Of a DNA stretch of 64,000 nucleotides, positions 17,392 through 64,000 are shown piece by piece. Every line of letters starts with the position of its first letter. Position 1 is the first letter of the stretch. The notes under the pieces were generated by a model that did not search any database, was not told the DNA's origin, and worked only from the letters and a program-made list of their open reading frames with translations. The stretch is from a gamma proteobacterium endosymbiont of Lamellibrachia anaximandri (GTDB lineage Bacteria; Pseudomonadota; Gammaproteobacteria; Chromatiales; Chromatiaceae). The translations under genes were made by a program, and so were the position numbers. The DNA is taken from assembly GCA_016756835.1 (NCBI GenBank), contig JAESPE010000006.1, positions 1-64,000 on the forward strand. The letters run 5' to 3'.

Positions 17392-18467
17392 TCCGCCTTG
17401 CTGCAATGGTCGAGACAGGCTCGGAGCATCCCCTGGCCGAAGCCGTGGTTGAGGCTGCAAGAAGTCGTGGTCTCGATATTGCGGGGGTGAGTGATTTTCA
17501 GGCCCTGGAGGGGAGGGGCGTTTCAGGACAGGCCGAGGGGCGCAGGCTTCTGCTTGGTAATCATCATTTGATGGAGGAGCAGGGTGTCATCATCCCGCCA
17601 ACCTTGCTGAAGGAGGCTTCGCGGCAGGCCGCCAGTGCGGCCACGCCGGTTTGGCTGGCAGTGGATTCGCAGATTGCGGGATTGCTGGCAGTGAACGATC
17701 CGATTCGCACCGACAGTTTTGCTGCTGTGGAGGCCCTGCAGCGTGAAGGTGTCAGGGTCGTGATGTGCACTGGAGACAACCGGGCGACGGCAGAGGCGGT
17801 AGCCGCCGACCTGAAAATCGACGAGGTTCACAGCGAACGCCTGCCGGGAGAGAAGCTCGACGTGGTGAAGTCGTTGCAGCGGCAGGGATGCCGGGTCGGC
17901 ATGGTGGGTGACGGCATCAATGACGCCCCTGCGCTGGCCCAGGCGGATACCGGTTTCGCTGTCGGTAGTGGCGCCGATGTCGCTATCGATAACGCCGATA
18001 TCACCCTGGCGGGAGACTCGCTGGCCGATGTGAGTAGTGCGATTGCCATATCCAGCGCCACGATTCGTAATATCAAGCAGAATCTGTTCGGCGCTTTTAT
18101 CTATAATGTGATCGGCATACCCATGGCTGCCGGGGTGCTGTTCCCTGTCACCGGCTGGCTGCTGCCGCCGATGTTCGCCAGCGCCGCCATGGCATTGTCA
18201 TCGGTGACGGTGGTTTTCAATGCCAACCGGCTGCGTTTTTTTCAACCACTGAGAATGGAGAGTTCCGTGTCTATCAAACTCAATGTCACCGGCATGACCT
18301 GCCCCCACTGCGTGAATCATGTTACCAAGGCCTTGCAGGGCGTCGGGGGCGTGGAAACTGTCGAGGTCAGCCTCGATGCAGGTGAGGCGGTGATTACCGG
18401 CTCCGCTGCGGTTGATCTGCTTGTTGCTGCGGTAAAGGATGCGGGTTACAGCGCAGAGACGGTTTGA
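17388..18467 (+). CDS. copA: Cu+-exporting P1B-type ATPase, C-terminal part with an extra HMA domain
   Basis: Open in the frame -1 to the N-terminal part and overlapping its stop by 4 nt; the readable homology begins upstream of the GTG at 17388 ([21 protein letters not shown]). It carries the HP motif [10 protein letters not shown], the hinge [18 protein letters not shown] in FIYNVIGIP, and MxxSS in [18 protein letters not shown]. An additional HMA domain follows the last helix: [21 protein letters not shown] to [15 protein letters not shown]-terminal HMA is unusual, since most CopA proteins carry theirs at the N-terminus. It looks like a CopZ chaperone fused in frame. Whether this half is made separately, by frameshifting, or is dead cannot be told; a sequencing error is possible. 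Confidence 0.8.
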
Positions 18468-39247: not shown

Positions 39248-39978
39248 TCCGAGTACTCCTCGTTGTCGTCACGACTGGTGAACACCAGTCGGTTTTTGTA
39301 TTCACCGCGCAACATGAAACGGCGCCCCAGGTTGAGGCGCGCCCCGAGTCCTACGTTCGCGGTCTGGTCAGTGCGGTCCTCGCTCTGCACCAGGGTGCTG
39401 CGTGGACGCGTGTGGATGAGGCCGGTGCCGATGGTGAAGAAAGGCGAGATTCTCCATTCAGGGAAAGGCTGGGCAACAAGATTTATGTCTGCCATCAGTT
39501 GGCTTGAGACGTCCCCCAAGGCGTGGGAGAAGGCGAGCTCGGCACTGAGATTCTGCGACAGAGCGAAGCCGCCGTATGCGCTGAGCAGGGCGGCGCCTTC
39601 AAAATAGCCGCCCAGCAGGCCCGCTTCCCAGCGGCGTCGGCTGAAGTCGTCCAGTCGAGGTGCATCCAGACGCAGCGGCTCGCCCTGGTGGTCGAGGTTT
39701 CCACTGAGTTGATCCAGATGGACCCAACCCTCAACGCCTTTGTGGGTACGCAGTTTGAACCAGTCGGTGCGGCGTTTGAGGATCTCCACCCGCTCGCCCC
39801 GCCCTACGGCATGAATAGCGGGAAAGGCGCGTCCCGGGCCGGTCTGTAACTCAATGAAGGGTGCACTGATCTCCACCTCCCGGTAACGCTCTTCCGCTGC
39901 TGCAAGCGTACTCAACAGCCAGAGCGGAAGCAGGTAGATCAGGGATAAGTGCGGGTGGGCAGAGGCCATCGGGTTCAT
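39217..39978 (-). CDS. SH3-domain protein with a C-terminal outer membrane barrel
   Basis: 253 aa from ATG 39978, which gives a 4-bp ATGA overlap with the stop of the upstream gene; the frame is open to 40035. A signal peptide (LSLIYLLPLWLLSTLAAA) is followed by a bacterial SH3 domain (about 40-95: FIELQTGPGRAFPAIHAVGRG, WFKLRTHKGVEGWVH) that may contact peptidoglycan. From about 115 on, short strands (WEAGLLGGYFEGAALLSAYGG to YSEWKLGIAFFF) form a barrel of the same type as its neighbour. The two barrel genes are thus paralogues, one of them with an added wall-binding module. Role inferred: an outer-membrane part of the neighbouring envelope machine. Confidence 0.8.
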   Translation of the reverse strand: MNPMASAHPHLSLIYLLPLWLLSTLAAAEERYREVEISAPFIELQTGPGRAFPAIHAVGRGERVEILKRRTDWFKLRTHKGVEGWVHLDQLSGNLDHQGEPLRLDAPRLDDFSRRRWEAGLLGGYFEGAALLSAYGGFALSQNLSAELAFSHALGDVSSQLMADINLVAQPFPEWRISPFFTIGTGLIHTRPRSTLVQSEDRTDQTANVGLGARLNLGRRFMLRGEYKNRLVFTSRDDNEEYSEWKLGIAFFF

Positions 39979-42632
39979 TCTTCGACGGGAATGTCGAAGG
40001 GGTTGTTCCAATACTGGGCACCGATGTCGAGCCATTCGGACAACAGCCGCAGTTCGGCCGGGCTCAGATAACCTTCGTGGGAGCCGCCCATCGTGAAGCG
40101 GTCAAAAAAATAGCTGGTCTGTGAGGAACCGGCCCGCATCGAGGGACCGGGGGCACGTATCGGCACCATTGTCGGGATCGGCAGGCCGTCGGCGTCGAGG
40201 ATAAGATTACCGTCAGCGTCGGTTTCGAACAGGAGGTTACCCGCATTATCGGTTGCCTGCACCAGCTGGTCGAGCAACAGACCGTTGATGATCTCCTGCA
40301 CATTGTCGGAAAAGAGCAGTTCCCGGTATGCCTTGAAATGGTCGGATTGAGCGTCCGAAGGGCCGTCACTCAGGTCAAGCTGACCGGCGGAAACCTGCAA
40401 TGCGCCGTTTTCGTCGATGGTTCCATGACACAGGTTGCAGCGGCGATCTTCAATCAGCTGGCCGTTTTCGTCCAGCAGCGGACGTGGGACATTCCAGAGA
40501 GGATGGATATGTTGTTCATAGTGGATTACCGTGCGGCAAAGACGGGACCAGTTCTGCTGGCAGGACTCGGTGGTGGGAGCCGCAGCGTTCACGTCGGCGT
40601 AGCGATAGCTGAAAGCGGGATCCTTTGCCCGCACAGCGGGGTCGGTCCAGTGATCCTCAAACAGCAGGTCGACGTCGGGACTGAGGGCGGCACAGTCACT
40701 CTGGCAGATGATGCGGCCGCGGGCCTGGGCCATGGTTTCGCCCTGGTTGGCCCAGATCGCCGGATCGCTGTTGGGAAAGGGCAGGCCGTCCCCCAGAGCG
40801 CCGACGTTGACTGCGACCGGCAGGGCATCCTTGCGGCCGTGAGGTACGGTGTCGTCAGGGTCGTGACAGCCGTGGCACGTGAGTGTTTCTCCGGGACGCA
40901 GATGCAGCCAGTGGTCATGGCGATCACTGATCCGTTGCCCATTCCGGTCGAGCAGGCTGAAGCTGAAAGGGGTGTCGGCCGGAACCTTGATATTCACCGA
41001 GCCGTCGGGTTCGATGGGAGCGTAACCGAGGATCTCGCGCATTCCCAGGCTTCGGTTGCGGCCGAAGGCGCTGCCGGGTATATCCAACAGATCGTCGGGA
41101 GGGAGTGCCACCGGTTTGAACAGGCGCAGGAAACGCAGTGGACGCTGGTCGGCTGTGGTCAGCGCCGGATCTGCCAGGCTGACAAGGTCGGGAACGGCAG
41201 TGTCCTGGCCGTCCAGATCGTAAACGCTGCGGATCTGCAGCAGTCCTACGCCCTCTTCCGCCAGCAGAATATCGGGAATATTGTCAAAGATTATGGCCGG
41301 GGCTTTGCGCGCCTGTAACGCCACCACCTCTTCGTAGACTACCCCGTCGGTGGGGCTGAGCACCGGCATCTGGGTCGCCTCGGCCGGATCATAGACGTAG
41401 ATACCGTAGAGTGGGGGGGCTTCCACGGCGCGGGGGTCGGTAAGATTTTCCTCTGTGCAGGGCAGGGTGAGGTTCTCGATTCGCAGGCGGCACTGACTCC
41501 AGCTCAGCAGAAGCCGGTCTGTGCCGTCCCGGAGCGGAAAGGCGTCACGGTAGCGGCCACCGGTGGAAGGGGCGCTATCGGTGCGCACCAGGTTTATCGT
41601 GGCTGGCGGCTGGGCTGTGCCCGGCAGGGTTTCGCCGCCGCTGAGCGGACGGTTGTGGTCGACGAAATTATCGATATCGATCCGCACCAGATCGCCACCA
41701 TCCAGATTGTTGAAGGGTCGTAACAGGGCAAGCAAGCCGCCGTCAGGCAGTTCGCGGGGGCGCAGGAACTGCACCGCTGCGCCGTCAGTTCCGGTGGCGT
41801 GGCTGTCGGCGCCGTAGAGAAGCTGCAGATTGGTGCCGTCAGGATTCATCTGATAGAGGTCGATTGCCTCGTTTCCACTGCGTTCCCAGCGGCTAAACAC
41901 CACTCGTCCGTCGCTCAGCACTGTGGGGTCCAGGTCGTGACTCTGGTTGAAGGAGATCTGTTGGATGTCGCTGCCGTCCGCCTGCATCACATGCAGCACG
42001 AATATGGGCTCCTGGCCGGATTCGTTGATCGCGGCGTACTGCGGCTTGCCTTCGTCCAGCAGCAGCGCCTTGGCACTCTTCTGCCGGCTGGAACTGAACA
42101 ATATCCGGCCGTCCGGCAGATAGTGGGGGGCGATGTCATGGCCCGCTTCAGCATGGGTGTCGGAGGTGATGACGCGGCGCAGACTATTGTCGGCATAGTT
42201 GTACTCCCAGATGTTCCAGCTCGGCTGATCTACCTCGTCCAGACCTTCGATCAGAGGCAGGCGAAGTGAGAACAGCAGTCGCTCGCCATCATAGGAGACC
42301 TGCAGATCCCGAACGTCCCCCCCTCCACCAGTGAGTTGATGGGTGAGATTGTGCTCATCTGCGCTGGGTGAAGCGCGTTCGCGCAAGTAGAGATCGGCGC
42401 CGGGATTGAAGGTGATCAGGCGGCGCATGTCCTCCTGTTCGATACCGGTGACAGGACGTTTTACATAGGCAACCGGGTGGTCCACTACCACGGGGTCTGC
42501 TGTCTGCTCGGCTCCACCGCAAGCAACCAATAAGATTGGAGCCAGGATGCCGGAAAGATATCGGCATGCCGTCGGATGTTTCTTAATAAAAGTAAACAAG
42601 AACATCAGTCGATGATTTCCATGATCCATCAT
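39975..42632 (-). CDS. Diheme lipoprotein with hydrazine synthase alpha-like domain
   Basis: 885 aa as written; ATG at 42605 is an alternative start and neither has a clear ribosome site. The signal peptide ends in the lipobox LLVAC. The first ~330 residues hold TolB/PD40-like propeller repeats (LQVSYDGERLLFSLRL, YLPDGRILFSSSRQ, LSDGRVVFSRWER). The middle part (GYAPIEPDGSVNIKVPADT, FSLLDRNGQRI, LHLRPGETLTCHGCHDP) matches the HZS-alpha domain of anammox hydrazine synthase. Heme sites are C586-HG-C589-H and C732-NL-C735-H. Such relatives occur widely outside anammox bacteria, so hydrazine chemistry is not implied. It heads the leftward operon, divergent from another cytochrome gene. Confidence 0.82.
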   Translation of the reverse strand: MMDHGNHRLMFLFTFIKKHPTACRYLSGILAPILLVACGGAEQTADPVVVDHPVAYVKRPVTGIEQEDMRRLITFNPGADLYLRERASPSADEHNLTHQLTGGGGDVRDLQVSYDGERLLFSLRLPLIEGLDEVDQPSWNIWEYNYADNSLRRVITSDTHAEAGHDIAPHYLPDGRILFSSSRQKSAKALLLDEGKPQYAAINESGQEPIFVLHVMQADGSDIQQISFNQSHDLDPTVLSDGRVVFSRWERSGNEAIDLYQMNPDGTNLQLLYGADSHATGTDGAAVQFLRPRELPDGGLLALLRPFNNLDGGDLVRIDIDNFVDHNRPLSGGETLPGTAQPPATINLVRTDSAPSTGGRYRDAFPLRDGTDRLLLSWSQCRLRIENLTLPCTEENLTDPRAVEAPPLYGIYVYDPAEATQMPVLSPTDGVVYEEVVALQARKAPAIIFDNIPDILLAEEGVGLLQIRSVYDLDGQDTAVPDLVSLADPALTTADQRPLRFLRLFKPVALPPDDLLDIPGSAFGRNRSLGMREILGYAPIEPDGSVNIKVPADTPFSFSLLDRNGQRISDRHDHWLHLRPGETLTCHGCHDPDDTVPHGRKDALPVAVNVGALGDGLPFPNSDPAIWANQGETMAQARGRIICQSDCAALSPDVDLLFEDHWTDPAVRAKDPAFSYRYADVNAAAPTTESCQQNWSRLCRTVIHYEQHIHPLWNVPRPLLDENGQLIEDRRCNLCHGTIDENGALQVSAGQLDLSDGPSDAQSDHFKAYRELLFSDNVQEIINGLLLDQLVQATDNAGNLLFETDADGNLILDADGLPIPTMVPIRAPGPSMRAGSSQTSYFFDRFTMGGSHEGYLSPAELRLLSEWLDIGAQYWNNPFDIPVEE

Positions 42633-48406: not shown

Positions 48407-48939
48407 TGAAAACCAGCCTGCCGAAAATCCTCCGGTTGTTGGCACTGTTGCTGCTATCCCTGTCTATTGTGGGCCAGTCTCAGGCCGATGAACCCGCCGA
48501 CCTGCAGAGCCAGGTGCGGTCGCTGAAGAAGGCGGTGGTAGCACTAAACCGGGATCTCTTTTTGTTGGAGGAAGAGCTGCTTTTTCCCGGCCACACCCAA
48601 GTCTCGGTCTTCCTCTCCCTTGACCTGGGTGAGTTCTTCACCCTTGACTCTGTGCAGTTGAAGATCGATGACAAGGCGTTGGCCAACCACCTCTACACCG
48701 AACGGGAGCTGGCGGCGTTACGCCGTGGCGGGGTGCAGCGGCTCTTTCTCGGCAATCTGAAGAGCGGTGAGCATGAGCTGGTCGCCTTTTTTACCGGTAT
48801 CGGTCCCGCCGGCCGCGACTATCGTCGCGCTACCAGCCTCAAGTTCACCAAGGGGGTAAGCCCCAAGTTGCTGGAGCTGCGGATCGTCGATTTGGAAGCG
48901 AGGCAGCAGCCGGAGTTTGACGTCCGGGAGTGGGAGTGA
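48406..48939 (+). CDS. Exported coiled-coil protein of the envelope machine
   Basis: 177 aa. A signal peptide ends SQADE. Residues about 33-60 (LQSQVRSLKKAVVALNRDLFLLEEELLF) form a coiled coil. The rest is beta-rich (TQVSVFLSLDLGEFFTLDSVQLKIDD, GVQRLFLGNLKSGEHELVAFF), like an Ig or PEGA fold. It has no cysteine in its mature part. I recall proteins of this shape beside TPR, ExbB and ExbD genes, without a proper name. It overlaps both neighbours (stop/start TGATG upstream, GTGA downstream). Likely a periplasmic structural part. Confidence 0.7.
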   Translation: MKTSLPKILRLLALLLLSLSIVGQSQADEPADLQSQVRSLKKAVVALNRDLFLLEEELLFPGHTQVSVFLSLDLGEFFTLDSVQLKIDDKALANHLYTERELAALRRGGVQRLFLGNLKSGEHELVAFFTGIGPAGRDYRRATSLKFTKGVSPKLLELRIVDLEARQQPEFDVREWE

Positions 48940-50795
48940 GCCAGGCAGGATTCATCTTGCGGCTGGGTGTTGGCCTGCTGGGGGCTTTGCTGAACAGCGC
49001 GACGCTGGGTGGATCTGTACCGGCCGGGATCGGGGTGCGTGATCTCCACTATGGCGAAGCACTGTTCCAGCTCTTCCAGCAGCGCAACTTCACTGCCATT
49101 ACCCATCTGCAAATGGCCCAGGCCAAGGGGGCGATGACCGCCCAGGGTGATGAGCCGGAGCTGGTCCTGGGCGGACTCTATCTCGCCTACGGTCTTTACG
49201 ACGAGGCGGAACAGCTGTTCATGCGGCTGCTGGAAAAGGCGGCAAAACCCGCAGTACGTGACCGGGCCTGGTTCCAGCTGGCGCGGCTGCATCAGCAGCA
49301 GGGTCGGCCTAAACGGGCGGCCGCAGCCTTCGCGCGCATCGGCGATGCTCTGCCCGATACTCTGCATGAACAGCAGCGCGAGCTGGCCGGTCTGATTGCA
49401 ATGGCGCAGGGTGATCACCCGCTCGCTGTGCAGCGGCTGATGTCTCCCGATGGAAGGTCAGCGTGGCAGGGATTCCATCTCTTCAACCGGGCACTGGCCC
49501 AGCTTGGTCAGGGCAGTGAGCAGGAGGGCCGCGATCTGCTGGATCAGCTGGCCGGACTCGACGCCGATGATGAGGAGCACCGCGCATTGCGCGACCGCGC
49601 CAATCTCCTGCATGGACAATTATTACTTGAAGCCGGAGAGAATGCTGCGGCACAGGAGCGCTTGCAGCAGGTGCGGCTGCAGGGTCTCCACTCCAATCAG
49701 GCGCTGTTGGCGTTGGGTTGGGCATCCTTTCGCCAAGACCAGTTTGAAGAGGCGCTGACTCCCTGGATGGCGTTGGCGTTACGTGACCCGGACGATCCGG
49801 CAGTACAGCAGGGGCTGCTGCTGGCTCCCCAGGCGCTGCAGCAGTTGGGGGCGGAAGCCGAGGCGCTCAAACGCTACCGCCAGGCGCTGAAATTTTACCA
49901 GGCGGAGCTGGCCGAGCTGGGCCTATCGTTACAGGCAGTGGCGAAGGGTGTGCTGCTGCCGGATCTGTCTATGTTCGACGGAGGAGGTGCAGCAGACGGG
50001 TTGCTGTTGGCGAGCGACCCGGATCAGCGCCGTCGTCTGCGGGGACTGCTGGCAAAGCACCGCTTCCGCCAGGCCTACGACGACTATGTCGATGTGGGTT
50101 TTCTCAGTGCCAATCTCCACCGCTGGTCCTCCACCATCGAGACCTACGACCACATGCTGGAGGTGCGGCAGGCCGCCTATGCCGAGCAGTTGCCGAGGGT
50201 GGAGGCGGCGCTATCCGATCAGCGTCTTCAGGGCTTGCGGCAGCGTCGTGAAAAGTTGCTTGAGAGGCAAAAAGAGCTGGCTGACAACCGTCTGCCACTG
50301 CGGTTGGCGAATGCCGAAGAACAGGCCCAACTGGCCCGTATGCAGGCGATTGAAGCGAAAATGGATCAAATGGGTGATGCTGTTCAACTTGAGGCCAAAC
50401 GCCAGCGGCTGAGGCTGATGAAGGGGATACTGCACTGGCAGGTGGAGACCGACTTCAAACCCCGCTTGTGGCAGTTCAGCAAATCACTCCGTTCGGCTGG
50501 TGATGAGCTTGAGCAGAGCCGGCAATTGTGTGAAAGGCTACAAGTGGCGCTAGAGCAGGCGCCCAGCCGTTTCGAAGGTTTTTCGGGGCGAATCGAATCG
50601 CTGAAAGCGCGCATTGCAGAGCTGCAAGCTAGCGTGAATGTGACCCTGAAGGCACAGGCCGGAGCGCTGAATCTCATGGCCAGCGAATCACTGCAGCAGC
50701 GTCGGCAAGGCCTCGAAGCGCTGCAGGTCCGCACTCGCTTCGCGCTGGCTCAGTTGCAGGACCGGGCCGCTGCCCGCAATGAGGCGGGGCCATGA
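48936..50795 (+). CDS. TPR-repeat periplasmic protein with coiled coil
   Basis: 619 aa from GTG 48936, which overlaps the upstream stop as GTGA; GTG 48930 is in frame too. A signal peptide (about 5-28) precedes TPR-like helices (EALFQLFQQRNFTAITHLQMA, GLYDEAEQLFMRLLEKA, AWFQLARLHQQQGRPKRAAAAF). The C-terminal 250 residues are coiled coil (RQRREKLLERQKELAD, ESLKARIAELQASVNV). It is soluble in the periplasm by prediction. TPR proteins of similar design (GltD, GltE) form the periplasmic part of the Agl-Glt machine, and this position matches. The last codon overlaps the start of the next gene (ATGA). Confidence 0.75.
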   Translation: MSQAGFILRLGVGLLGALLNSATLGGSVPAGIGVRDLHYGEALFQLFQQRNFTAITHLQMAQAKGAMTAQGDEPELVLGGLYLAYGLYDEAEQLFMRLLEKAAKPAVRDRAWFQLARLHQQQGRPKRAAAAFARIGDALPDTLHEQQRELAGLIAMAQGDHPLAVQRLMSPDGRSAWQGFHLFNRALAQLGQGSEQEGRDLLDQLAGLDADDEEHRALRDRANLLHGQLLLEAGENAAAQERLQQVRLQGLHSNQALLALGWASFRQDQFEEALTPWMALALRDPDDPAVQQGLLLAPQALQQLGAEAEALKRYRQALKFYQAELAELGLSLQAVAKGVLLPDLSMFDGGGAADGLLLASDPDQRRRLRGLLAKHRFRQAYDDYVDVGFLSANLHRWSSTIETYDHMLEVRQAAYAEQLPRVEAALSDQRLQGLRQRREKLLERQKELADNRLPLRLANAEEQAQLARMQAIEAKMDQMGDAVQLEAKRQRLRLMKGILHWQVETDFKPRLWQFSKSLRSAGDELEQSRQLCERLQVALEQAPSRFEGFSGRIESLKARIAELQASVNVTLKAQAGALNLMASESLQQRRQGLEALQVRTRFALAQLQDRAAARNEAGP

Positions 50796-53599
50796 AGTTT
50801 CTGACCCTGATACTGCTTCTGCCTCTGCTGCAGGGGTGCGTCTCCTGGTTGCAGCGGCAACCCGAGCCACCCACTCTGGCCAGTCCGCCGAACCGGGAAA
50901 GCGAGGTGGAAGCAGAGCCGGTCGAGGCATTGACGCCGGAGAGGGTGATGGAGGACTACCGGGCACTGCTGCAACAGCCTGCGCCTCCCGAGCTGACCCA
51001 TGAAGCGACCCGGCGGTTGGCGGACCTGCAGCTGGGACAGGGTGAACGGCGCCTCGCAGGGGAGACCCAAGGTTTGCCGGCGGAGGCTGTCTTCGACAGT
51101 GCGATCAAACTCTATCGGCAACTGCTGGAGCAGAATGACGACATAACCGGGCGTGACCGGCTCTACTATCAGCTGGCTCGGGCCGAGGTGCTGGTCGGCC
51201 GGTTGGAGGCGTCGCAGCAGACCCTTGATCGTCTGGTGCACGAACATCCGGAGAGTCTCTATTTCCAGGAGGCTCAGTTTCGACGGGGTGAGTGGTTGTT
51301 CGCCCGTGCTGACTATGCCGCAGCCCAGCGAGCCTATGCCGCCGCCGTGGCTGCGGGTGGGGATTCGCCGTTCCACCAACGTGCCCTGTTCAAACTCGGT
51401 TGGGCACTGTTCAAACAACAGCAATTCAATGCGGCTCTGGATGCCTTCGTGGCCCTGCTCGATCTGCGTGCGGATACGCTCAGCCGCCTCGACAGCAACA
51501 CCCTGACCCCTAGTGACCGGGAGCTGATGCAGGATACCCTGCGGGTTACCAGCCTCTGTTTTACCCAGCAGGGGGGTGCCGCAGGGATCGACCGATATTT
51601 TCAGTCAAATGGCGAACGTCCCTGGCTGCATCGGGTCTATCGCAGTCTTGGAGACCTCTATCTCAAACAGGAGCGTGTCCTTGACGGGGCGGATGCCTAT
51701 CTTTCATTCGTGCGACGGAGTCCCAGCCATCCACAGGCGCCGCCGCTCCAACTGCTGGCAATCGAGAGTTACCAGACTCACGATTTTCCCGGTCAGGCAC
51801 TGGCGGCGAAAAGAGCGCTGGCGCAACGCTACCGGCAGGATGGTGAGGCCTGGAAGGGACTGGAACATGAGAGCCGGCTCGCCCTCACCCCCCATCTGCG
51901 AAAGTATCTGCGGGATCTGGCGAGCCATTATCATGCCCTGACACAACAGCCCGGCAAGGTGAAAAAGGGGCAGCGCGATACCTGGTTCAGCGAAGCGGTT
52001 GTCTGGTATCGCCACTACCTGAGCCGTTTTCCCGGCGAGGCACAAAGCGGTCGGATCAACTTTCTACTGGCGGAGTTGCAGTTTGAGCGGGGTGAATTTG
52101 GCCAGGCGGTAGTGGAGTACCAGCGCACTGCTTACGACTATCCACCACACAAAGACGCTGCCGAGGCGGGTTACGCTGCGCTGCTCGCCTTTGACCGACA
52201 GAAGTCGCTCCTGCCTGAGGCCCAGCGCCCGGAGTGGCAGCGTCAGACGGCAGAGAGCGGTTTGCGTTTTGCTGACCGTTTTCCCGCTGATAAACGAACC
52301 GCCGGGGTGCTGAGTCGTAGCGCTCAACAGTTGTTTCAACTGGGGGATTATGGCCAGGCCAGAAAAGTGGCGCAGCGCAGCCTGGAGGGGAAAACCGGGC
52401 TGGATGTAAAGGGCCAAAGGGTGAGTTGGGCAGTGGCCGCCCACGCTGCCTTCGAACTGGCCGACTATGCTGAAGCGGAAACCGGCTACAACAAGCTGCT
52501 GCAACTGTCGGCGGGAGACAAGACGGGTCAGGGGACGATCCGGGAAAAGCTCGCGGCTGCTATCTACCAGCAGGGGCGGATCCTGAGTGAAAAGGGTGAG
52601 GCAGCGGCAGCGGCCCAACACTATCTGCGCGTGGGCCGGGTGGTGCCCGGCGCGTCGATTCGTACCACTGCTGAATACGATGGCGCTGCCAGCCTGATTG
52701 CTGCGGGGCGATGGGCGTCGGCTACCGAGGTGCTGGAGGGATTTCGTCAGCGCTATCCCGAGCATGAGCTGACGATCGATGTCGAGCGTAAACTGGCCCT
52801 TGCCTATCTGCAAAATGGGCAGCCGCTGGAGGCGGCGGTGGTGTTCGAGCGGGTGGCAGTTGCGCCTCTGGCGATGGAAGTGCAGCAGCAGGCGGCCTGG
52901 CAGGCAGCGGAACTCTACCAGAAGGCGGGCAGTGACAAGCGGGCGGTAAGTGCATTCAAGCGCTACGTAAAACGTTTTCCCCAGCCTCTGGAACCGGCGA
53001 TGGAGGCCCGCCAGCAGTTGGTGGAGCTCTATCAACGGCTGCAGGAACCTGCCAAGCGCGACTACTGGTTGCGCCAGCTCGTTTCTGTTGAGCGCAAGGC
53101 CGGTGCCGCCGGTAGTGAGCGCAGCCGCTATCTCGCTGCCCAGGCGGCGCTGAGACTGGCTGAACCGGAATACACGGCCTTTGTAAAAATTCCCCTGAAA
53201 CGGCCGCTGGCGCGCAGTCTGAAGCGCAAAAAGCGCCAGATGCAACGCGCCATCAATGCCTATGACCTGGCGGCGGGTTTTGCCCAGGCCGATGTGACCA
53301 CCCTGGCAACCTTCCGCCTGGCTGAGATCTATCGGCTCTTCGGCGAGTCCCTGCTGACTTCGGAACGTCCCGCCGGGCTTTCGGCGGAAGAGTTGGAACA
53401 GTATGAACTGCTACTGGAGGAGCAGGCATATCCCTTCGAGGAGAAGGCGATCGAGGCCCATGAGCTGAACGCCCGGCGGGCGGTACAGGGTGTCTACGAC
53501 GACTGGGTTCGTCAGAGCTTCAGTCAGCTGGCGCAATTGAACCCGGCGCGTTACGCCAAACAGGAACAGGGGGAGCGGGTGTTCGATGAGATGCGTTAG
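50792..53599 (+). CDS. Large TPR-repeat lipoprotein
   Basis: 935 aa. The lipobox LLQGC lies about residue 16, so it is lipid-anchored. It carries at least ten TPR-like units across the whole length (LYYQLARAEVLVGRLEASQQ, HQRALFKLGWALFKQQQFNA, AEYDGAASLIAAGRWASATE, and others), comparable in style to myxobacterial GltE/AglT and the long TPR proteins of gliding clusters. It overlaps its neighbours by 4 and 14 bp. It would make an extended scaffold between the membranes. Confidence 0.8.
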   Translation: MKFLTLILLLPLLQGCVSWLQRQPEPPTLASPPNRESEVEAEPVEALTPERVMEDYRALLQQPAPPELTHEATRRLADLQLGQGERRLAGETQGLPAEAVFDSAIKLYRQLLEQNDDITGRDRLYYQLARAEVLVGRLEASQQTLDRLVHEHPESLYFQEAQFRRGEWLFARADYAAAQRAYAAAVAAGGDSPFHQRALFKLGWALFKQQQFNAALDAFVALLDLRADTLSRLDSNTLTPSDRELMQDTLRVTSLCFTQQGGAAGIDRYFQSNGERPWLHRVYRSLGDLYLKQERVLDGADAYLSFVRRSPSHPQAPPLQLLAIESYQTHDFPGQALAAKRALAQRYRQDGEAWKGLEHESRLALTPHLRKYLRDLASHYHALTQQPGKVKKGQRDTWFSEAVVWYRHYLSRFPGEAQSGRINFLLAELQFERGEFGQAVVEYQRTAYDYPPHKDAAEAGYAALLAFDRQKSLLPEAQRPEWQRQTAESGLRFADRFPADKRTAGVLSRSAQQLFQLGDYGQARKVAQRSLEGKTGLDVKGQRVSWAVAAHAAFELADYAEAETGYNKLLQLSAGDKTGQGTIREKLAAAIYQQGRILSEKGEAAAAAQHYLRVGRVVPGASIRTTAEYDGAASLIAAGRWASATEVLEGFRQRYPEHELTIDVERKLALAYLQNGQPLEAAVVFERVAVAPLAMEVQQQAAWQAAELYQKAGSDKRAVSAFKRYVKRFPQPLEPAMEARQQLVELYQRLQEPAKRDYWLRQLVSVERKAGAAGSERSRYLAAQAALRLAEPEYTAFVKIPLKRPLARSLKRKKRQMQRAINAYDLAAGFAQADVTTLATFRLAEIYRLFGESLLTSERPAGLSAEELEQYELLLEEQAYPFEEKAIEAHELNARRAVQGVYDDWVRQSFSQLAQLNPARYAKQEQGERVFDEMR

Positions 53600-54239
53600 A
53601 CCGATTGCAGTTCTCCTTTTTTGCTCGTTGCTGCTGGCGGGCTGCGCTAATCAGGCACCGCGCCGGGATCTGGCGTCACCTGCTACAGCAGGGTCGCCGC
53701 CGTTGGAAAAAACAGAGCGGGAGAGTGCGCCTGAGTTGCCGGAACAAGCCCGTTTGCAGCTGAGCCAGGCGCTCATTGCGATGCGTGATAGCCGGGATGA
53801 GGAGGCCGAGCCACTGCTGAGGGCGCTGGCGGATGAGTTCCCCGGTTTTGTCTCGCCGCGGCTCAACCTGGGCATCCTGCTGCTCAGGGGGAATCAGGCA
53901 GAGGCTGCGGAGACGGCATTGCGCCAGGTGTTGCAGATCGACGCGGAGAATTCGGTGGCACAACACCAGCTGGCTATTCTGATGCGTCGCCAGGGACGTT
54001 TCCAGGAGGCGCTGACGGTATACAGGAAACTGTTGGAGGGCAAACCGGACCATGCCCTGGCTCACCGCAACCTGGGCATCCTCTATGACCTCTATCTCGA
54101 CGAACCCCGCCAGGCACTGGCCCACTACCAGCAGTTTGCGGCGCTCTCCGCCGATGGCAAGCAGGAGACAAAAATGTGGATTATGGAGCTGAAAAGACGC
54201 ATCGGCACCGGGGAAAAACTGGCGGCAGGGGCAAAATGA
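53586..54239 (+). CDS. TPR-repeat lipoprotein, small
   Basis: 217 aa. The signal peptide ends in the lipobox LLAGC. Four TPR units follow (SRDEEAEPLLRALADEFPGFVSP, NQAEAAETALRQVLQIDAEN, GRFQEALTVYRKLLEGKPDH, and LGILYDLYLDEPRQALAHY). It is a PilF/GltE-sized protein. It starts inside the previous gene (14-bp overlap) and ends in an ATGA overlap with the next. Confidence 0.82.
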   Translation: MRCVRPIAVLLFCSLLLAGCANQAPRRDLASPATAGSPPLEKTERESAPELPEQARLQLSQALIAMRDSRDEEAEPLLRALADEFPGFVSPRLNLGILLLRGNQAEAAETALRQVLQIDAENSVAQHQLAILMRRQGRFQEALTVYRKLLEGKPDHALAHRNLGILYDLYLDEPRQALAHYQQFAALSADGKQETKMWIMELKRRIGTGEKLAAGAK

Positions 54240-54520
54240 GTAGGAATAGAGGTGTTTTTCGATGGACGCTGCTGCTGGCGACGCTGCTGAATCCGTGGAT
54301 GGCCCAGGCAGAGCAGCGGATGGAACTGGACGGTACGGCGGTAGTTGGCAGCCGGGAGTCCCCTCAGGTGCTCTATCTGGTGCCCTGGCGGAAATCGGGG
54401 CCGGGTGATCCGTTAGGCATGCCGCCGTTGGAGAGCGGAGACGATCTGCGGGTCCCGTTGGAGCGGGCGGTGTTTCGGCGGCAGCTCGACTATTTCAGTG
54501 CCGCCAATGAACAACCATGA
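54236..54520 (+). CDS. Small exported protein of the envelope machine
   Basis: 94 aa from ATG 54236, inside an ATGA overlap with the previous stop. A signal peptide ends WMAQAE. The mature 70 residues (MELDGTAVVGSRESPQVLYLVPWRK, then PLGMPPLESGDDLRVPLERAVFRRQLDYF) are compact and charged and have no cysteine. The VLYLVPWRK/RAVFRRQLDYF pattern seems to recur before ExbB genes in similar clusters, as far as I recall. The function is unknown. Confidence 0.7.
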   Translation: MSRNRGVFRWTLLLATLLNPWMAQAEQRMELDGTAVVGSRESPQVLYLVPWRKSGPGDPLGMPPLESGDDLRVPLERAVFRRQLDYFSAANEQP

Positions 54521-54593
54521 ACGAAACGCCGTACGACCTGCAGAACAAGGTCATTAATAGATCAATCTGAATAATCGCTACAGAGGAACCATT

Positions 54594-55238
54594 ATGGACA
54601 ACTATCTTTTTATCATTCGATTTTTTCAAGAGGGAGGGGTGTTCATGTACCCGATCCTGCTGATTTTTGCCCTCGGCCTGGCGATAGCTGTAGAGCGTTA
54701 CGTCTACCTGGCAAGCGCGAAACTGCGCAACAGCCGTTTCTGGGCGAGGGTGCTGCCACAGCTGAATGAAGGTGAATTCAAACAGGCGCTGCAATCGGCC
54801 AGCGACTCCAGCACCGCCCTGGGGCGCATCCTGGTTTACGGGCTGTCCCGCACACACAATGCACGGCGCCGGGGAGACATTGAGATGGCAATGGAAGAGG
54901 GGCTGATGGAGGAGATCCCACGTTTTGAGAAACGCACTCACTATCTGAGCACTCTGGCCAATATCGCCACGCTTCTTGGCCTCTTGGGAACCATTATCGG
55001 TCTGATCAACGCCTTCACCGCAGTCGCTGCTGCCGATCCTGCGGAGAAGGCGGACCTGCTCTCCGCCAGCATCTCGGTGGCGATGAATACCACCGCTTTC
55101 GGTTTGATGGCGGCGATCCCGCTATTGCTTGTCTACACGCTGCTGCAGAGCCGTACCACCCAGGTTGTCGATAGTCTGGAGATGGTTTCTGTGAAGTTCC
55201 TCAATATCGTCACCGAGCGGGCCGGGAGCACAAAATGA
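54594..55238 (+). CDS. ExbB/TolQ/MotA-family proton channel subunit
   Basis: 214 aa. Three membrane helices: about 15-35 (MYPILLIFALGLAIAVERYVY), about 120-145 (LANIATLLGLLGTIIGLINAF) and about 160-185 (ISVAMNTTAFGLMAAIPLLL). GLLGTIIGLINAF and the NTTAFGLMAAIP stretch are the TolQ/ExbB signature with the Thr and Pro of the proton path. With two ExbD subunits it should form a proton-motive-force motor in the inner membrane, as AglR does with AglQ and AglS in Myxococcus. It starts 73 nt after the small exported protein and ends in an ATGA overlap with exbD1. Confidence 0.92.
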   Translation: MDNYLFIIRFFQEGGVFMYPILLIFALGLAIAVERYVYLASAKLRNSRFWARVLPQLNEGEFKQALQSASDSSTALGRILVYGLSRTHNARRRGDIEMAMEEGLMEEIPRFEKRTHYLSTLANIATLLGLLGTIIGLINAFTAVAAADPAEKADLLSASISVAMNTTAFGLMAAIPLLLVYTLLQSRTTQVVDSLEMVSVKFLNIVTERAGSTK

Positions 55239-55750
55239 GACGCAGGTCGCGTCGTTATGCAGAAGAGGCGGAGCTGAATATCACCGCCTTTATGAATCTG
55301 ATGGTGATACTGGTGCCCTTTCTCCTGATCACCGCCACCTTCTCTCGCATGGCAGTGCTGGATCTCCACCTGCCGCCGGCCAGTGAGGGCAGCAGTGCTG
55401 CCAAGGGAGAACTCCAGTTGGAGGTTATTGTGCGCCACGACGCCATCGAGATTGCCGATCGTCGTGGAGGTCTGATTCAGCGCATCGAACAGCAGGAGTC
55501 GGGACAACATCTGCAGCAGCTTTCACAGGTGCTGCAGGCACTCAAGGCGCGTTATCCCGAAAAGCGCAACGTATACATCCTGTCGGAACCGGAGGTCTCA
55601 TATGACGATCTGGTGCAGGTGATGGACCGGGTGCGGATTACCGATCTGGTGCAGGCAGGTTCGGTGGTGCAGGCGGAGCTGTTTCCCGATATCTCCCTGG
55701 GCGATGCGCCTCCGCTGTCAGGGGCGGCAACCAGGGGCAAAGGCTCATGA
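55235..55750 (+). CDS. ExbD/TolR-family motor subunit 1 (Asn for the usual Asp)
   Basis: 171 aa. A short Arg-rich cytoplasmic N-terminus, one membrane helix (ELNITAFMNLMVILVPFLLITA) and a periplasmic domain (ELQLEVIVRHDAIEIAD, YPEKRNVYILSEPEVSYDDL). In ExbD and TolR the helix holds an Asp that carries the proton (LVDVMLVL-type); here the aligned residue is Asn (FMNLMVIL). The same wording is found in one of the two ExbD proteins of such clusters, so this may be a structural partner rather than a proton carrier. ATGA overlaps on both sides. Confidence 0.9.
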   Translation: MRRRSRRYAEEAELNITAFMNLMVILVPFLLITATFSRMAVLDLHLPPASEGSSAAKGELQLEVIVRHDAIEIADRRGGLIQRIEQQESGQHLQQLSQVLQALKARYPEKRNVYILSEPEVSYDDLVQVMDRVRITDLVQAGSVVQAELFPDISLGDAPPLSGAATRGKGS

Positions 55751-56268
55751 AGATGTCACGCCGGGCGAAACGCATGCAACGGCACCACAAGCGCAACCGG
55801 TGACGCGGCGGCATCAACCTGGTATCGCTGATGGATATATTCACTATCCTGGTCTTTTTCCTGTTGGTGAACTCCTCAGAGGTGCAGGTGCTGCCCAACG
55901 CCAAGGCCCTCAAGCTGCCTGAGTCGAGCGCAGAGCAGCGTGCAAAAGAGACCATGGTGGTGATGCTCAATACAGAGGAGATTCGGCTGCAGGGAGAGGT
56001 TGTGGTGCAGCTCGACCGGCTGGCAGACTCCACTACGGAGATGATCGAGCCGCTGCGGCAGGCACTGGATGAACGGCTGAAGATAGCGCTTCCTGCTGTG
56101 GGGAAGGAAGCTGATGGCATAGGTGAAATCACCATCATGGCGGACAGGCAGGTCCCTTACAGCCTGCTGAAACGGGTGATGCTGACCTGTGCGGAGAGCG
56201 AGTTCGGCAATATCTCCCTGGCAGTAGTGAGACGCCCGGAGGAAGGTGAGTCAGAGGTGGCGCTATGA
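55747..56268 (+). CDS. ExbD/TolR-family motor subunit 2, frame broken by TGA at codon 19
   Basis: The frame starts at ATG 55747 in an ATGA overlap with exbD1, and ends in an ATGA overlap with the TonB-like gene; it would be 173 aa. Codon 19, at 55801-55803, is TGA, between HHKRNR and RGGINLVSLMD. After it the ExbD helix INLVSLMDIFTILVFFLLVNS carries the proton-binding Asp that exbD1 lacks, followed by a normal periplasmic domain (EEIRLQGEVVVQLDRLA, EITIMADRQVPYSLLKRVM). An ATG at 55831 could restart translation, but without a ribosome site and losing the cytoplasmic end. Possible explanations: a sequencing error, readthrough of TGA-C, a nonsense mutation, or reassignment. The rest of the gene shows no decay. 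Confidence 0.82.
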
Positions 56269-57236
56269 GTGTGATGACACATCGGCTGGAACTGCCCTGG
56301 AACAGTGCGCACTGGGAAGACCGGCAGTTCCGCCGGTTGCAACTGGTGATGGTAGGTGCAGCGCTGCTGCTTGGGATGGTGCTCTCCCTGGTGGAACTGC
56401 CGCAACAGGAACGGTTTACACGCGTCACCCCGCCACGGCTGGCGAAACTCATTCTGGAACGCCGTCCGATAAAACCGGTAGAGCGTAAGCCGCCGGAAGT
56501 CGAGATACCCGTGGTTAAACCAAAACCGGTTGCCAAGCCGAAACCCAAGCCCAAGCCGGTAGTGAAAAAAAAGCCGAAAAGACAACCTTCCAAGGTGGCG
56601 AAGAAGCAGAAAAAAAGCGACCCGGCCGCAGCAAGACGCAAGGCCAGACAATCGGGTCTGCTGGCTGTTGCCGACGAGTTGGCGGAGCTGCGTTCCGCAC
56701 CTGCGGTGAGCAGCGTGGCGTCATCCCGCAGCCTCTCCAAAGCAGGTAACAAGGCAAATCGGGTGGAGCGCTCGCTGGTAACTGCGGGTGCCTCCCGTGG
56801 TAGTGACGGCATCAACACCGCGAAACTAAGCCGGGATACCGGCTCTCAAGGGTTGAGTGGTCGAAAAACGACCCAGGTGCGATCCGCAGTGCAGGGCAAC
56901 GGAGGTGGCGGTAGCCGGGCTAAAAAGGTGGCGAAAGACTACTCTGCCCAGCGTACTGAAGAGGAGGTTCAACTGGTGTTCGATCGCAACAAAGGGGCGC
57001 TCTACTCCATCTACAACCGGGCACTGCGAAAGAACCCCTCATTGATGGGAAAGATGCTGCTGGAGATTACCATTGCACCCTCGGGCAAGGTGACTACCTG
57101 TCGTTTGCTCTCCTCTGAGCTGGAGAACCGGAAACTGGAGCGAAAGCTGCTCGCGAGAATAAGGATGTTCGATTTTGGCTCCAAAGAGGTGGAGACCACT
57201 GTTGTCTCCTACCCGATCGACTTTCTTCCCTCATGA
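56265..57236 (+). CDS. TonB-like protein with AgmX/PglI-type C-terminal domain
   Basis: 323 aa. One membrane helix (about 28-48, LVMVGAALLLGMVLSLVELP) is followed by a Pro/Lys-rich TonB-like linker (VKPKPVAKPKPKPKPVVKKK, about 82-120) and a Ser/Gly-rich spacer. The C-terminal ~95 residues (EEVQLVFDRNKGALYSIYNR, KMLLEITIAPSGKVTTCRLL, FPID-like end) match the AgmX/PglI C-terminal domain known from gliding motility genes. In the Agl-Glt machine such proteins carry motor energy across the periplasm. ATGA overlaps both exbD2 and apbE. Confidence 0.88.
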   Translation: MSVMTHRLELPWNSAHWEDRQFRRLQLVMVGAALLLGMVLSLVELPQQERFTRVTPPRLAKLILERRPIKPVERKPPEVEIPVVKPKPVAKPKPKPKPVVKKKPKRQPSKVAKKQKKSDPAAARRKARQSGLLAVADELAELRSAPAVSSVASSRSLSKAGNKANRVERSLVTAGASRGSDGINTAKLSRDTGSQGLSGRKTTQVRSAVQGNGGGGSRAKKVAKDYSAQRTEEEVQLVFDRNKGALYSIYNRALRKNPSLMGKMLLEITIAPSGKVTTCRLLSSELENRKLERKLLARIRMFDFGSKEVETTVVSYPIDFLPS

Positions 57237-58207
57237 GAGGTGTAATGGTTCGGGTGCTGGCGGTGCTGCTGGGATTTGCCAGCTTCGGTGCCGAGGCGCA
57301 GTGGTTATGGCGAAGCGCCGATATCATGGGTACCCGAATTACGTTGCAACTGTGGTGTGAATCTACAGAGCAGGGTGAGGCTGCCATAGAGGCTGTGCTG
57401 AAGGAGATGCACCGCATCGATCGAGCGATGAGTCCGTTTCGCTCTGACAGTGAATTGTCACGGGTCAACCGGGAGGCGGGTCAGGGAGTGGTGGCGATCA
57501 GTGGTGAGTTGTTCAGGTTGCTGGAGAAGTCACGGCAGATATCTGAATTGACAGACGGGGCCTTCGACATCACCTTTGCCAGCGTCGGTGACCATTATGA
57601 CTATCGTCGTGGCATCAAACCCAGTGACGCGACACTGGGAGGGCTGTTGCCCGCCATCGATTATCATCATGTTTTGCTCCAGGCGGACCCGTCCGGCGTG
57701 CGGTTTGCTCGACCGCAGGTGCGTATCGATCTTGGTGGAATAGCCAAAGGCTATGCGGTTGATCGGAGCATAACGATCCTGCGACGTCACGGCATCGAAC
57801 ACGCTACTCTGAGTGCTGGTGGCGATAGCCGTTTTCTTGGTGACCGACGTGGCCGTTCATGGCGGGTGGGTATCCGCGATCCGGATGACAAGAAGGGCAT
57901 CAAGGCGTTGCTGCCTTTGAATGAATCCGCGCTCTCTACCTCCGGCGACTATGAGCGTTTTTTTATGCTGGATGGTGTGCGCCACCACCACATTCTGAAT
58001 CCCAAATCGGGCCGCTCGGCCGAAGGGGTGCGTAGTGTCTCGATTGTGGGGCCGGAGGCGGTGACTACGGATGCGCTGGCCACAGCGATATTCGTTATGG
58101 GCGAATCGGCTGGTATGGCGCTGGTGGAGCGGCTGTCGGGTATTGAGGCGGTATTTGTGGGTCCAACCGGTGAGATTCGCTTCTCCTCTGGGCTTGCAGC
58201 GCAATGA
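57233..58207 (+). CDS. apbE: FAD:protein FMN transferase ApbE
   Basis: 324 aa; ATG 57245 is an alternative to ATG 57233, which lies in an ATGA overlap. A signal peptide (VRVLAVLLGFASFGAEA) sends it to the periplasm. Family motifs in order: DIMGTRITLQL, MSPFRSDSELSRVNRE, LTDGAFDITFASVG, RIDLGGIAKGYAVDRS, LSAGGDSRFLG, HHHILNPKSGRSAEG and TTDALATAIFVMGESAG. ApbE links FMN to a Thr/Ser of exported redox proteins. No FMN_bind domain or S-G-A-T-like target site is obvious among its neighbours. It is the last gene of the rightward operon. Confidence 0.95.
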   Translation: MRGVMVRVLAVLLGFASFGAEAQWLWRSADIMGTRITLQLWCESTEQGEAAIEAVLKEMHRIDRAMSPFRSDSELSRVNREAGQGVVAISGELFRLLEKSRQISELTDGAFDITFASVGDHYDYRRGIKPSDATLGGLLPAIDYHHVLLQADPSGVRFARPQVRIDLGGIAKGYAVDRSITILRRHGIEHATLSAGGDSRFLGDRRGRSWRVGIRDPDDKKGIKALLPLNESALSTSGDYERFFMLDGVRHHHILNPKSGRSAEGVRSVSIVGPEAVTTDALATAIFVMGESAGMALVERLSGIEAVFVGPTGEIRFSSGLAAQ

Positions 58208-61024: not shown

Positions 61025-64000
61025 ATGTTGTTGGAAAAATTATTTTGTAAGCGTTTCTCTTTTTCTCTGATCATCATCCTATGTGTGTTTTTCGTGATGC
61101 CGATTTTCACGGATTTGCAAGCCGCTGATGCAGGTGTTGTGTCAACACGTATTGAGCAGAGAATCTCGGCCTCCATGGATGACGTGGAAGAGGAAGAGAG
61201 TGGCAATATCTACGTTAACAGTTCAGACCTGGAGCTGGTATACGATGGTGAATATCAAGTTATTGGACTCCGCTTTGCTCTGAATATTCCACAAGGTGTT
61301 CGTGTCGACGAGGCAAAACTTCAGTTTACCGTTGATGAGGTTTCAACCGATCCGACAAGCCTGGGGATTTATCTGGAAAATAGTCTGGATGCGCAGCCAT
61401 TCAGCAATCTGAGTTATAACGTCTCCTCCCGCACATTTTTTCGTCAAAGCGTGCCATGGCTTCCTGCGGATTGGACGAGTGTAGGGGAAGCTGGTACAGC
61501 ACAGCAGACGCCCGATATTTCAGCGCTGATACAGGCGGCAGTCGATCAACCTGACTGGAAATCCGGAAGCCATGTAGTAGTTGTGATTAAAGGCAGTGGC
61601 CGGCGTACTGCATCCTCTTATGACGGCGAAATGAATAAGGCGCCGCTGCTGTCTGTTTTATACACAAATAGTGAGACAGCTCCTGTTCCCGAGGAGCCGG
61701 TGATAGAAGAGCCTGTAGTTTCAAAACAGTTCACCAGTCGCATCTCCTCATCTCTTGATGATGTGGAAGAGGAAGAGGATGGAAATATCTATGCCAATAG
61801 TTCTGATATTGAACTGATATACGATGGTGAGTATCAGGTTGTCGGACTTCGCTTCGCTGTTGATCTGCCACAGGGCGCCCGCATTGATGAGGCGAACCTC
61901 CAGTTTACTGTCGATAAGGTTTCCCGCGGTGACAGCAGCCTTCAAATTGGTGTGGAACAGGCGTCCAATGCAGCGCCGTTCCAGAAAAGCAGTTATAACG
62001 TTTCATCACGCACGCTTTTTGCAAAGTCTGTTGCATGGTCTCCATCAGTTTGGAGAAAAAGGGGAAGAGCAGGTGCTGGGCAACGGACGCCAGATATCTC
62101 CGCACTGATACAGGCTGCGGTTGACCAACCGGATTGGCAAGCCGGGAATCATCTGGCGGTGGTCATAAAAGGTAGCGGACGCCGTGTGGCCTCTTCTTTT
62201 GACGGCAAGGCAGATAAAGCCCCTCTTTTGGTCATCAACTACCAGGCTAGCGACGGCGGCGGCACTACAGATCCACAGCTACCGAATCATGCGCCGACCA
62301 TTTCCGGTCTCCCTGCATCGGTTGTAGCAGAAAATACGCCTTACTATTTTGCGCCTGCAGCCGAAGATGCCGATGGCGATAAACTGAACTTTAGTGTTCG
62401 CAATCTGCCTGCTTGGGCAAGTTTTGATCCTGCAACCGGGATTATCTCCGGTACCCCCGGCTTTGATGCGGCAGGCAACTACGACCTTATCAGCATCAGT
62501 GTAACTGACGGCACGGAGAGCGCTACGCTGGCTGGTTTTTCCATCACTGTCAGCGACACAAACCGCTTGCCGACCATCAGCGGGTCTCCTGGTGGCAGTA
62601 TCACTGAAGGCTCGACCTACAGCTTTACCCCCAACGCATCCGATGCGGATGGCGATGCACTGGCCTTCCGTATCAGCAACAAGCCGGTCTGGGCCGGCTT
62701 CAACACTGCGACCGGAAATCTAACGGGTACGCCTGGTGCAGGAACGGCAGGCAGCTATGACAATATCAGCATCAGCGTAACCGACAGCGCAGGCAGTGCT
62801 TCGTTGGCCAGCTTCACCATTTCCGTAACCGCAAGCAATAATAATCAGGCACCGACCATTTCCGGCTCCCCGGCTACAAGCATTGCCGAAAGAGCGACTT
62901 ATACCTTCACTCCGAGTGCCTCCGATGCGGACGGTGATGCACTGAGCTTCAGCATCACCAACAAACCGAACTGGGCCGGCTTCGACCTCACCACCGGTCG
63001 ACTGTTCGGCAACCCCGGCTACAATGATGCCGGACTCTGGAGCGATATCCTTATCAGCGTGACCGACGGCACGGATAGCGCCTCACTGGCCAGTTTTTCC
63101 ATCACCGTCAGCAACACAAACCAGACACCGGTCATCAGTGGGTCACCTGCCAGTAGTGTCGCTGAAGGCTCGGCCTACAGCTTCACCCCCAGCGCATCTG
63201 ATGCGGATGGCGATGTACTGACCTTCAGCATTAGCAACAAGCCAATCTGGGCCAGCTTCAACACCGCCAGCGGACAGCTCTCCGGCACACTTGGCACAGG
63301 CACGGCCGGCAGCTATAGCAATATCGGCATCTCTGTCTCCGACGGTACTGAGAGCGCAACACTGAACGCCTTCCAGATCATCGTCACCGCACCCGCGCCA
63401 GGCGGGGGTAACAACCTCTATGTTGACCCGCTCATCGGCGCGTCGAGTTGCAACGATTACGATGTTGGCAGCCGTGCCTGCGGTGCGGGTTCCGACACGG
63501 CTTTTCGCAACCTGAGCGGGGCCGCCGCGGCTGCCGTCGCCGGTGAAACCGTTTTGATTCGCGAGGGTAGCTATAACGAACAGCTGATTCCGCAACGTTC
63601 CGGCACGCCCGGAAACTACATCACCTATCGCAATTACGAATCAGAGCAGGCGACGATCACCGGCACCAATCTCAGCCCAGCCATCGACATCTCCAATCGC
63701 GAATACCTTATTCTGCAGGGATTGCGGGTCCAGGACGTCTATCGCTGGATGTACGCCCTCAACGCCCATCACAACATTCTGCAGTACAACAGTTTTCTGC
63801 GGGCAAACCACGGCAGCACCAGTGCCAAGACCGGCCTGTTCTTTCAGGAGTCGACACATAACAAGATACTCAACAACACCATCGAGGACTCCTCCCAGGA
63901 TAACCTTGCCCTGATCAAATCGGACTACAATCTGGTGGAGGGCAACACCTTTGTGCGCGCCAGCCACACGCTCTGGGTGATCAAGTGCGGCAACTTCAAC
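61025..64000 (+). CDS. Large modular secreted protein with a parallel beta-helix domain (3' end outside window)
   Basis: At least 992 codons are open from ATG 61025 to the window end. A Sec signal (FSFSLIIILCVFFVMPIF, cleavage near LQAAD) starts it. Two tandem ~185-residue domains (beginning RISASMDDVEEEESGNIYVNS and RISSSLDDVEEEEDGNIYANS) are strongly similar to the N-terminal domain of the protein before it. Four putative-Ig repeats follow (for example YYFAPAAEDADGDKLNFSV, YSFTPNASDADGDALAFRI), each about 95 residues. Then a right-handed beta-helix begins (NLYVDPLIGASSCNDYDVG, AGETVLIREGSYNEQLIPQ, HHNILQYNSFLRANHGSTS, HNKILNNTIEDSSQDN), as in pectate-lyase-type or adhesin proteins. Polysaccharide binding or cleavage is likely. 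Confidence 0.82.
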   Translation, partial: MLLEKLFCKRFSFSLIIILCVFFVMPIFTDLQAADAGVVSTRIEQRISASMDDVEEEESGNIYVNSSDLELVYDGEYQVIGLRFALNIPQGVRVDEAKLQFTVDEVSTDPTSLGIYLENSLDAQPFSNLSYNVSSRTFFRQSVPWLPADWTSVGEAGTAQQTPDISALIQAAVDQPDWKSGSHVVVVIKGSGRRTASSYDGEMNKAPLLSVLYTNSETAPVPEEPVIEEPVVSKQFTSRISSSLDDVEEEEDGNIYANSSDIELIYDGEYQVVGLRFAVDLPQGARIDEANLQFTVDKVSRGDSSLQIGVEQASNAAPFQKSSYNVSSRTLFAKSVAWSPSVWRKRGRAGAGQRTPDISALIQAAVDQPDWQAGNHLAVVIKGSGRRVASSFDGKADKAPLLVINYQASDGGGTTDPQLPNHAPTISGLPASVVAENTPYYFAPAAEDADGDKLNFSVRNLPAWASFDPATGIISGTPGFDAAGNYDLISISVTDGTESATLAGFSITVSDTNRLPTISGSPGGSITEGSTYSFTPNASDADGDALAFRISNKPVWAGFNTATGNLTGTPGAGTAGSYDNISISVTDSAGSASLASFTISVTASNNNQAPTISGSPATSIAERATYTFTPSASDADGDALSFSITNKPNWAGFDLTTGRLFGNPGYNDAGLWSDILISVTDGTDSASLASFSITVSNTNQTPVISGSPASSVAEGSAYSFTPSASDADGDVLTFSISNKPIWASFNTASGQLSGTLGTGTAGSYSNIGISVSDGTESATLNAFQIIVTAPAPGGGNNLYVDPLIGASSCNDYDVGSRACGAGSDTAFRNLSGAAAAAVAGETVLIREGSYNEQLIPQRSGTPGNYITYRNYESEQATITGTNLSPAIDISNREYLILQGLRVQDVYRWMYALNAHHNILQYNSFLRANHGSTSAKTGLFFQESTHNKILNNTIEDSSQDNLALIKSDYNLVEGNTFVRASHTLWVIKCGNFN

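Follow-up and report, generated by a model that had tools for sequence, protein, structure and literature searches.

What does an in-frame stop codon mean when it falls at the start of a motor gene whose remaining codons are undamaged? In the window analysed here, a stretch of 64,000 nucleotides, codon 19 of the exbD2 frame at 55747-56268 is TGA (55801-55803), as the preliminary description had reported and as translation confirms. Read across the stop, the frame gives MKMSRRAKRMQRHHKRNR, stop, RGGINLVSLMDIFTILVFF..., so that the ExbD2 peptide is 18 residues long before termination. As set out below, no novel use of the genetic code is involved: the stop is a common kind of single-base lesion, or else a sequencing error. 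The present genome is designated G000, and its congeners, five other genomes of the same genus, G001 to G005; the genus seems to consist of seep-tubeworm symbionts. Features of the operon, all on the plus strand, are as follows.

48930-50795, plus strand: TPR protein, GltC/GltD-like, assigned by position (Pfam TPR; gene order as in the core complex, PMC3169522)
50792-53599, plus strand: large TPR protein, GltC/GltD-like (Pfam and NCBIfam TPR)
53586-54239, plus strand: TPR protein whose top-ranked NCBIfam match is GltE, far below the curated cut-off (NF033758 gliding_GltE, 1.1e-10, 41 bits vs 225)
54236-54520, plus strand: small orphan protein of 94 aa, no Pfam or NCBIfam match
54594-55238, plus strand: MotA/TolQ/ExbB subunit, AglR-like (PF01618, 1e-28)
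55235-55750, plus strand: ExbD1, AglS/AglQ-like, Asn at the proton-binding place (PF02472, 9.7e-19)
55747-56268, plus strand: ExbD2, AglQ/AglS-like, carrying the Asp, broken by TGA at codon 19 (PF02472)
55801-55803, plus strand: in-frame TGA; GGA in G001, G002, G004 and G005, GGG in G003 (congener comparison)
55831-56268, plus strand: open frame past the stop, starting at ATG 55831 and 145 aa long; MDIFTILVFFLLV... could be made by re-initiation (open frame)
56265-57236, plus strand: GltG/TonB-like force transducer with AgmX/PglI C-terminal domain (NF033768, 3.9e-18, 65.3 bits vs 40)
57233-58207, plus strand: ApbE (FAD:protein FMN transferase), end of the operon (PF02424, 8.1e-81)

The core complex described by Luciano et al. 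(2011) comprises gltC, gltD, gltE and gltG together with aglR, aglQ and aglS (PMC3169522). Clusters encoding it, whose function is unknown, also occur in Gammaproteobacteria, where they contain one extra gene (PMC3169522). Judged from its sequence, the present operon matches such a gammaproteobacterial Glt/Agl core complex. Its motor genes lie side by side at 54594-56268 with matches to PF01618, PF02472 and PF02472, that is, one ExbB-type and two ExbD-type subunits. The TPR genes are assigned to GltC, GltD or GltE by position only, and on the transducer the GltG model itself scores 9.9e-10, below its own cut-off. The 94-aa orphan may be the "additional gene" of core complexes outside the deltaproteobacteria (PMC3169522).

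The start of exbD2 at 55747 was considered firm in the preliminary description, and it holds: the gene is flanked by ATGA overlaps with the ExbD1 gene (55747-55750) and with the transducer gene (56265-56268), and the beginning MKMSRRAKRM is common to every congener. Two further observations made there, a C directly 3' of the TGA and undamaged codons after it, were both seen again. The frame past the TGA is open and conserved up to 56268. This part alone matches PF02472 (8.2e-13, 49 bits against a cut-off of 25.4) and retains the membrane Asp (SLMDIFTILVFF); its identity to the intact genes of the five congeners is 92-97%. Since it scores as an ExbD and is so close to intact congener genes, the frame after the stop is beyond chance. 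What the break removes is the basic N-terminus. No second intact copy of exbD2 was found elsewhere in the genome, a draft of 4.14 Mb in 263 contigs.

The two ExbD subunits differ at the proton-binding place, where ExbD1 has Asn (AFMNLM; surrounding sequence AFMNLMVILVPF) and ExbD2 has Asp (SLMDIF), so the earlier alignment of the two proteins stands. The same division, Asn in ExbD1 and Asp in ExbD2, occurs in 83 of 83 loci; the Asp of ExbD2 is partly built into this count, as one search peptide contains it, while the Asn of ExbD1 is not. A search of solved structures with ExbD1 gave weak TolR/ExbD matches only, and our literature searches found no report of such an Asn/Asp split. In Myxococcus, proton conductance is abolished by the AglQ substitution D28N, and the machine is paralysed (PMC3858216). 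Since ExbD1 naturally carries Asn at this place, an operon without ExbD2 should lack the proton site. The proposal that the motor of this operon depends on ExbD2 is thus supported. ExbD2 had also been called the only ExbD with the proton-binding Asp, which is true within the operon but not within the genome: three further Asp-bearing ExbD/TolR genes (LIDVVF, LIDMVF and YIDVML) are found elsewhere, each near its own ExbB/TolQ-like gene.

We wondered what stands at codon 19 in related bacteria. An intact exbD2 frame of 175 aa is present in all five congeners, and their codon 19 encodes glycine, as GGA in four and as GGG in the fifth. Given that GGA is the common congener codon, TGA is a single G-to-T step away. 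No stop interrupts the frame at codon 19 in about 80 loci from the wider Gammaproteobacteria, where the residue at this place is variable. Among the sequences compared, the stop is private to the G000 genome. The preliminary description had predicted a sense codon in close relatives if the stop were an error or a fresh mutation, and GGA and GGG are such codons. Further sequences of this species were sought as well: scanning viral_contigs for the exact pattern gave no match, and genome_contigs gave other species only.

Machinery and signals for recoding were searched for in the genome. The SelB winged-helix domain (SelB-wing_2) had no hit, with a positive E. coli control. No tRNA-Sec scored above the cut-off, and sub-threshold hits coincide with ordinary tRNAs. 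Among genome tRNAs read by ARAGORN (44 tRNA hits, two weak ones unnamed), none has a UCA anticodon. Downstream of the TGA no unusual RNA structure was detected, the folding z-score being -0.05 against shuffles. Selenocysteine was rejected on the lack of SelB and of a tRNA-Sec above the cut-off, and an RNA element after the stop on its folding score. Suppressor tRNA or stop reassignment was likewise rejected: none of the tRNAs read has the UCA anticodon, and TGA ends neighbouring genes. Programmed UGA recoding is not in agreement with the comparison either, as the in-frame stop is not conserved and a sense codon is present in five of five congeners and in about 80 further loci.

Two ways of rescuing ExbD2 nevertheless deserve consideration. 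If the TGA were read through, by leakiness of UGA-C, by a suppressor tRNA or by selenocysteine, full-length ExbD2 would be made. UGA-C is a leaky stop context, the downstream codons are intact, and variability of the residue at codon 19 in relatives implies that almost any insertion would be tolerated. Against this, the TGA occurs in one genome only and serves as the ordinary stop of neighbouring genes, and we consider readthrough very improbable. With a private TGA, neither selenocysteine machinery nor UCA tRNAs found and no unusual downstream structure, this option of the preliminary description is not borne out. Just as improbable is the more far-reaching version, in which efficient UGA readthrough would yield full-length ExbD2, throttling the proton motor; in a milder version, the Glt/Agl core complex would work as a motor built obligatorily of Asn/Asp heterodimers, each dimer having one proton site, and would be in the course of being lost in tubeworm symbionts. 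The other rescue is a restart at ATG 55831 after termination, giving a short ExbD that begins MDIFTILV and keeps some motor function. This ATG is in frame and 27 nt past the stop, and with stop/start overlaps (ATGA) already in use in the operon, ribosomes that terminate may initiate again. On the other hand, no Shine-Dalgarno-like sequence is visible upstream of 55831, and the ATG is merely the conserved Met of SLMD in relatives. Missing from the product would be the basic N-terminus, a feature conserved widely among the compared loci, and the beginning of the transmembrane helix; about 11 hydrophobic residues would remain after the Asp. Re-initiation, likewise raised earlier, is therefore feasible as far as the in-frame ATG goes, but would yield a truncated helix; we regard it as quite unlikely.

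Of its four options, namely readthrough, re-initiation, a fresh mutation and a sequence error, the preliminary description had preferred none; the choice now lies between a real lesion and an error. We lean, with some reserve, towards a recent private nonsense substitution, or a strain variant, affecting the ExbD subunit that carries the Asp in a core-complex motor of Glt/Agl type. By this account one G-to-T change would have turned GGA into TGA, ending the ExbD2 peptide after 18 residues; with Asn in ExbD1 at the place where protons bind, the rest of the operon would be unable to form a motor that conducts protons; and the lesion would be tolerated because the lineage, or a part of the population sampled, can dispense with the motor. 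Such a lesion must be young, since private changes in G000 exbD2 (four synonymous and two nonsynonymous) resemble those of the five intact copies, which have 0-3 nonsynonymous ones. The downstream transducer gene has four synonymous private changes in G000 and no nonsynonymous ones. A less probable account, yet one with a substantial share of our belief, is that the real gene is intact and that the TGA arose by mistake in base calling, consensus building or assembly, or entered the consensus from a minor strain. It is favoured by the draft state of the assembly (263 contigs), by the change being one base only, by another private lesion of one base on the 74-kb contig that holds exbD2 (at 17356, where a heavy-metal P-type ATPase gene has lost 1 nt), and by exbD2 showing constraint like intact copies, with no sign of relaxed selection. 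Neither of these lesions, however, lies in a homopolymer, the setting of the commonest assembly errors, and the draft is not generally poor.

The last statement comes from a comparison of 796 kb of G000 with 1.99 Mb of the single-contig genome G003 (291 kb aligned), which took in 169 genes, about 155 of them outside one IS family. Most flagged cases proved on inspection to be start-codon over-extensions or members of this IS family. Clear internal lesions in the approximately 155 genes are two in G000 (the exbD2 TGA and the deletion at 17356) and none in G003, numbers too small to tell a mutation from an error. The genes compared give no indication of decay across the genome. An error is further opposed, and a real lesion in G000 favoured, by independent damage to the same operon in a sister species, where a large lesion is clearly not due to sequencing: G001 (locus L133) lacks 192 nt in frame, opposite window positions 57036-57227, a clean deletion in the GltG-like transducer that takes most of the AgmX/PglI C-terminal domain. 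The weights that we attach to the nonsense substitution, to the error and to the two rescue readings together are a matter of judgement and were not computed.

Other differences in the operon were observed among the congeners. The large TPR gene of G001 has also lost 1 nt beside a run of G (opposite window position 51580). Between the small orphan gene and exbB, four congeners carry an element of 158 nt whose inverted ends are of the GTAGGTCGGGTTAG type (window position 54533); it is absent from G000 and G003, apparently deleted between short CGACC repeats.

Elsewhere in the window, the heavy-metal P-type ATPase gene (15517-18467) has an HMA domain at either end, and its deletion, which is private relative to G003, divides it into frames 15517-17391 and 17388-18467; the second begins with a GTG overlapping the premature stop. 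An 885-aa protein on the minus strand (39975-42632) gives a match to PF18582, the middle domain of hydrazine synthase alpha (5.1e-17). This is probably a generic domain, and the bacterium is not expected to make hydrazine. Stretches of 62260-64000 match several places in G001, G003 and G004 with 71-83% identity, which suggests a repetitive protein or gene family.

Being a private break or an error, the stop codon itself is of small importance. The operon has been struck independently in two of six congeneric genomes, by the exbD2 TGA in G000 and by the 192-nt deletion in G001, an indication that these symbionts can do without the machine; the damaged operons represent natural knock-outs for comparison. 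The Asn/Asp division deserves more attention than the stop. Its strictness raises the question whether this 5:2-type motor runs on a single proton site.

Compared with known systems, the operon shares with the Glt/Agl core complex (PMC3169522) three TPR proteins, a small extra gene, motor subunits of which one is of ExbB type and two are of ExbD type, and a TonB-like transducer bearing the AgmX/PglI domain at its C-terminus; it differs in that a stop codon cuts ExbD2 and that an ApbE gene follows. As in private nonsense mutations of other draft bacterial genomes, the stop is one base away from the sense codon of relatives, confined to one genome and followed by undamaged codons, and it is distinctive only in striking a key motor subunit. 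With respect to the ExbD/TolR family (PF02472), the scores of both ExbD genes exceed the cut-off and ExbD2 keeps the membrane Asp, whereas ExbD1 has Asn at the Asp position and ExbD2 lacks an intact frame in G000.
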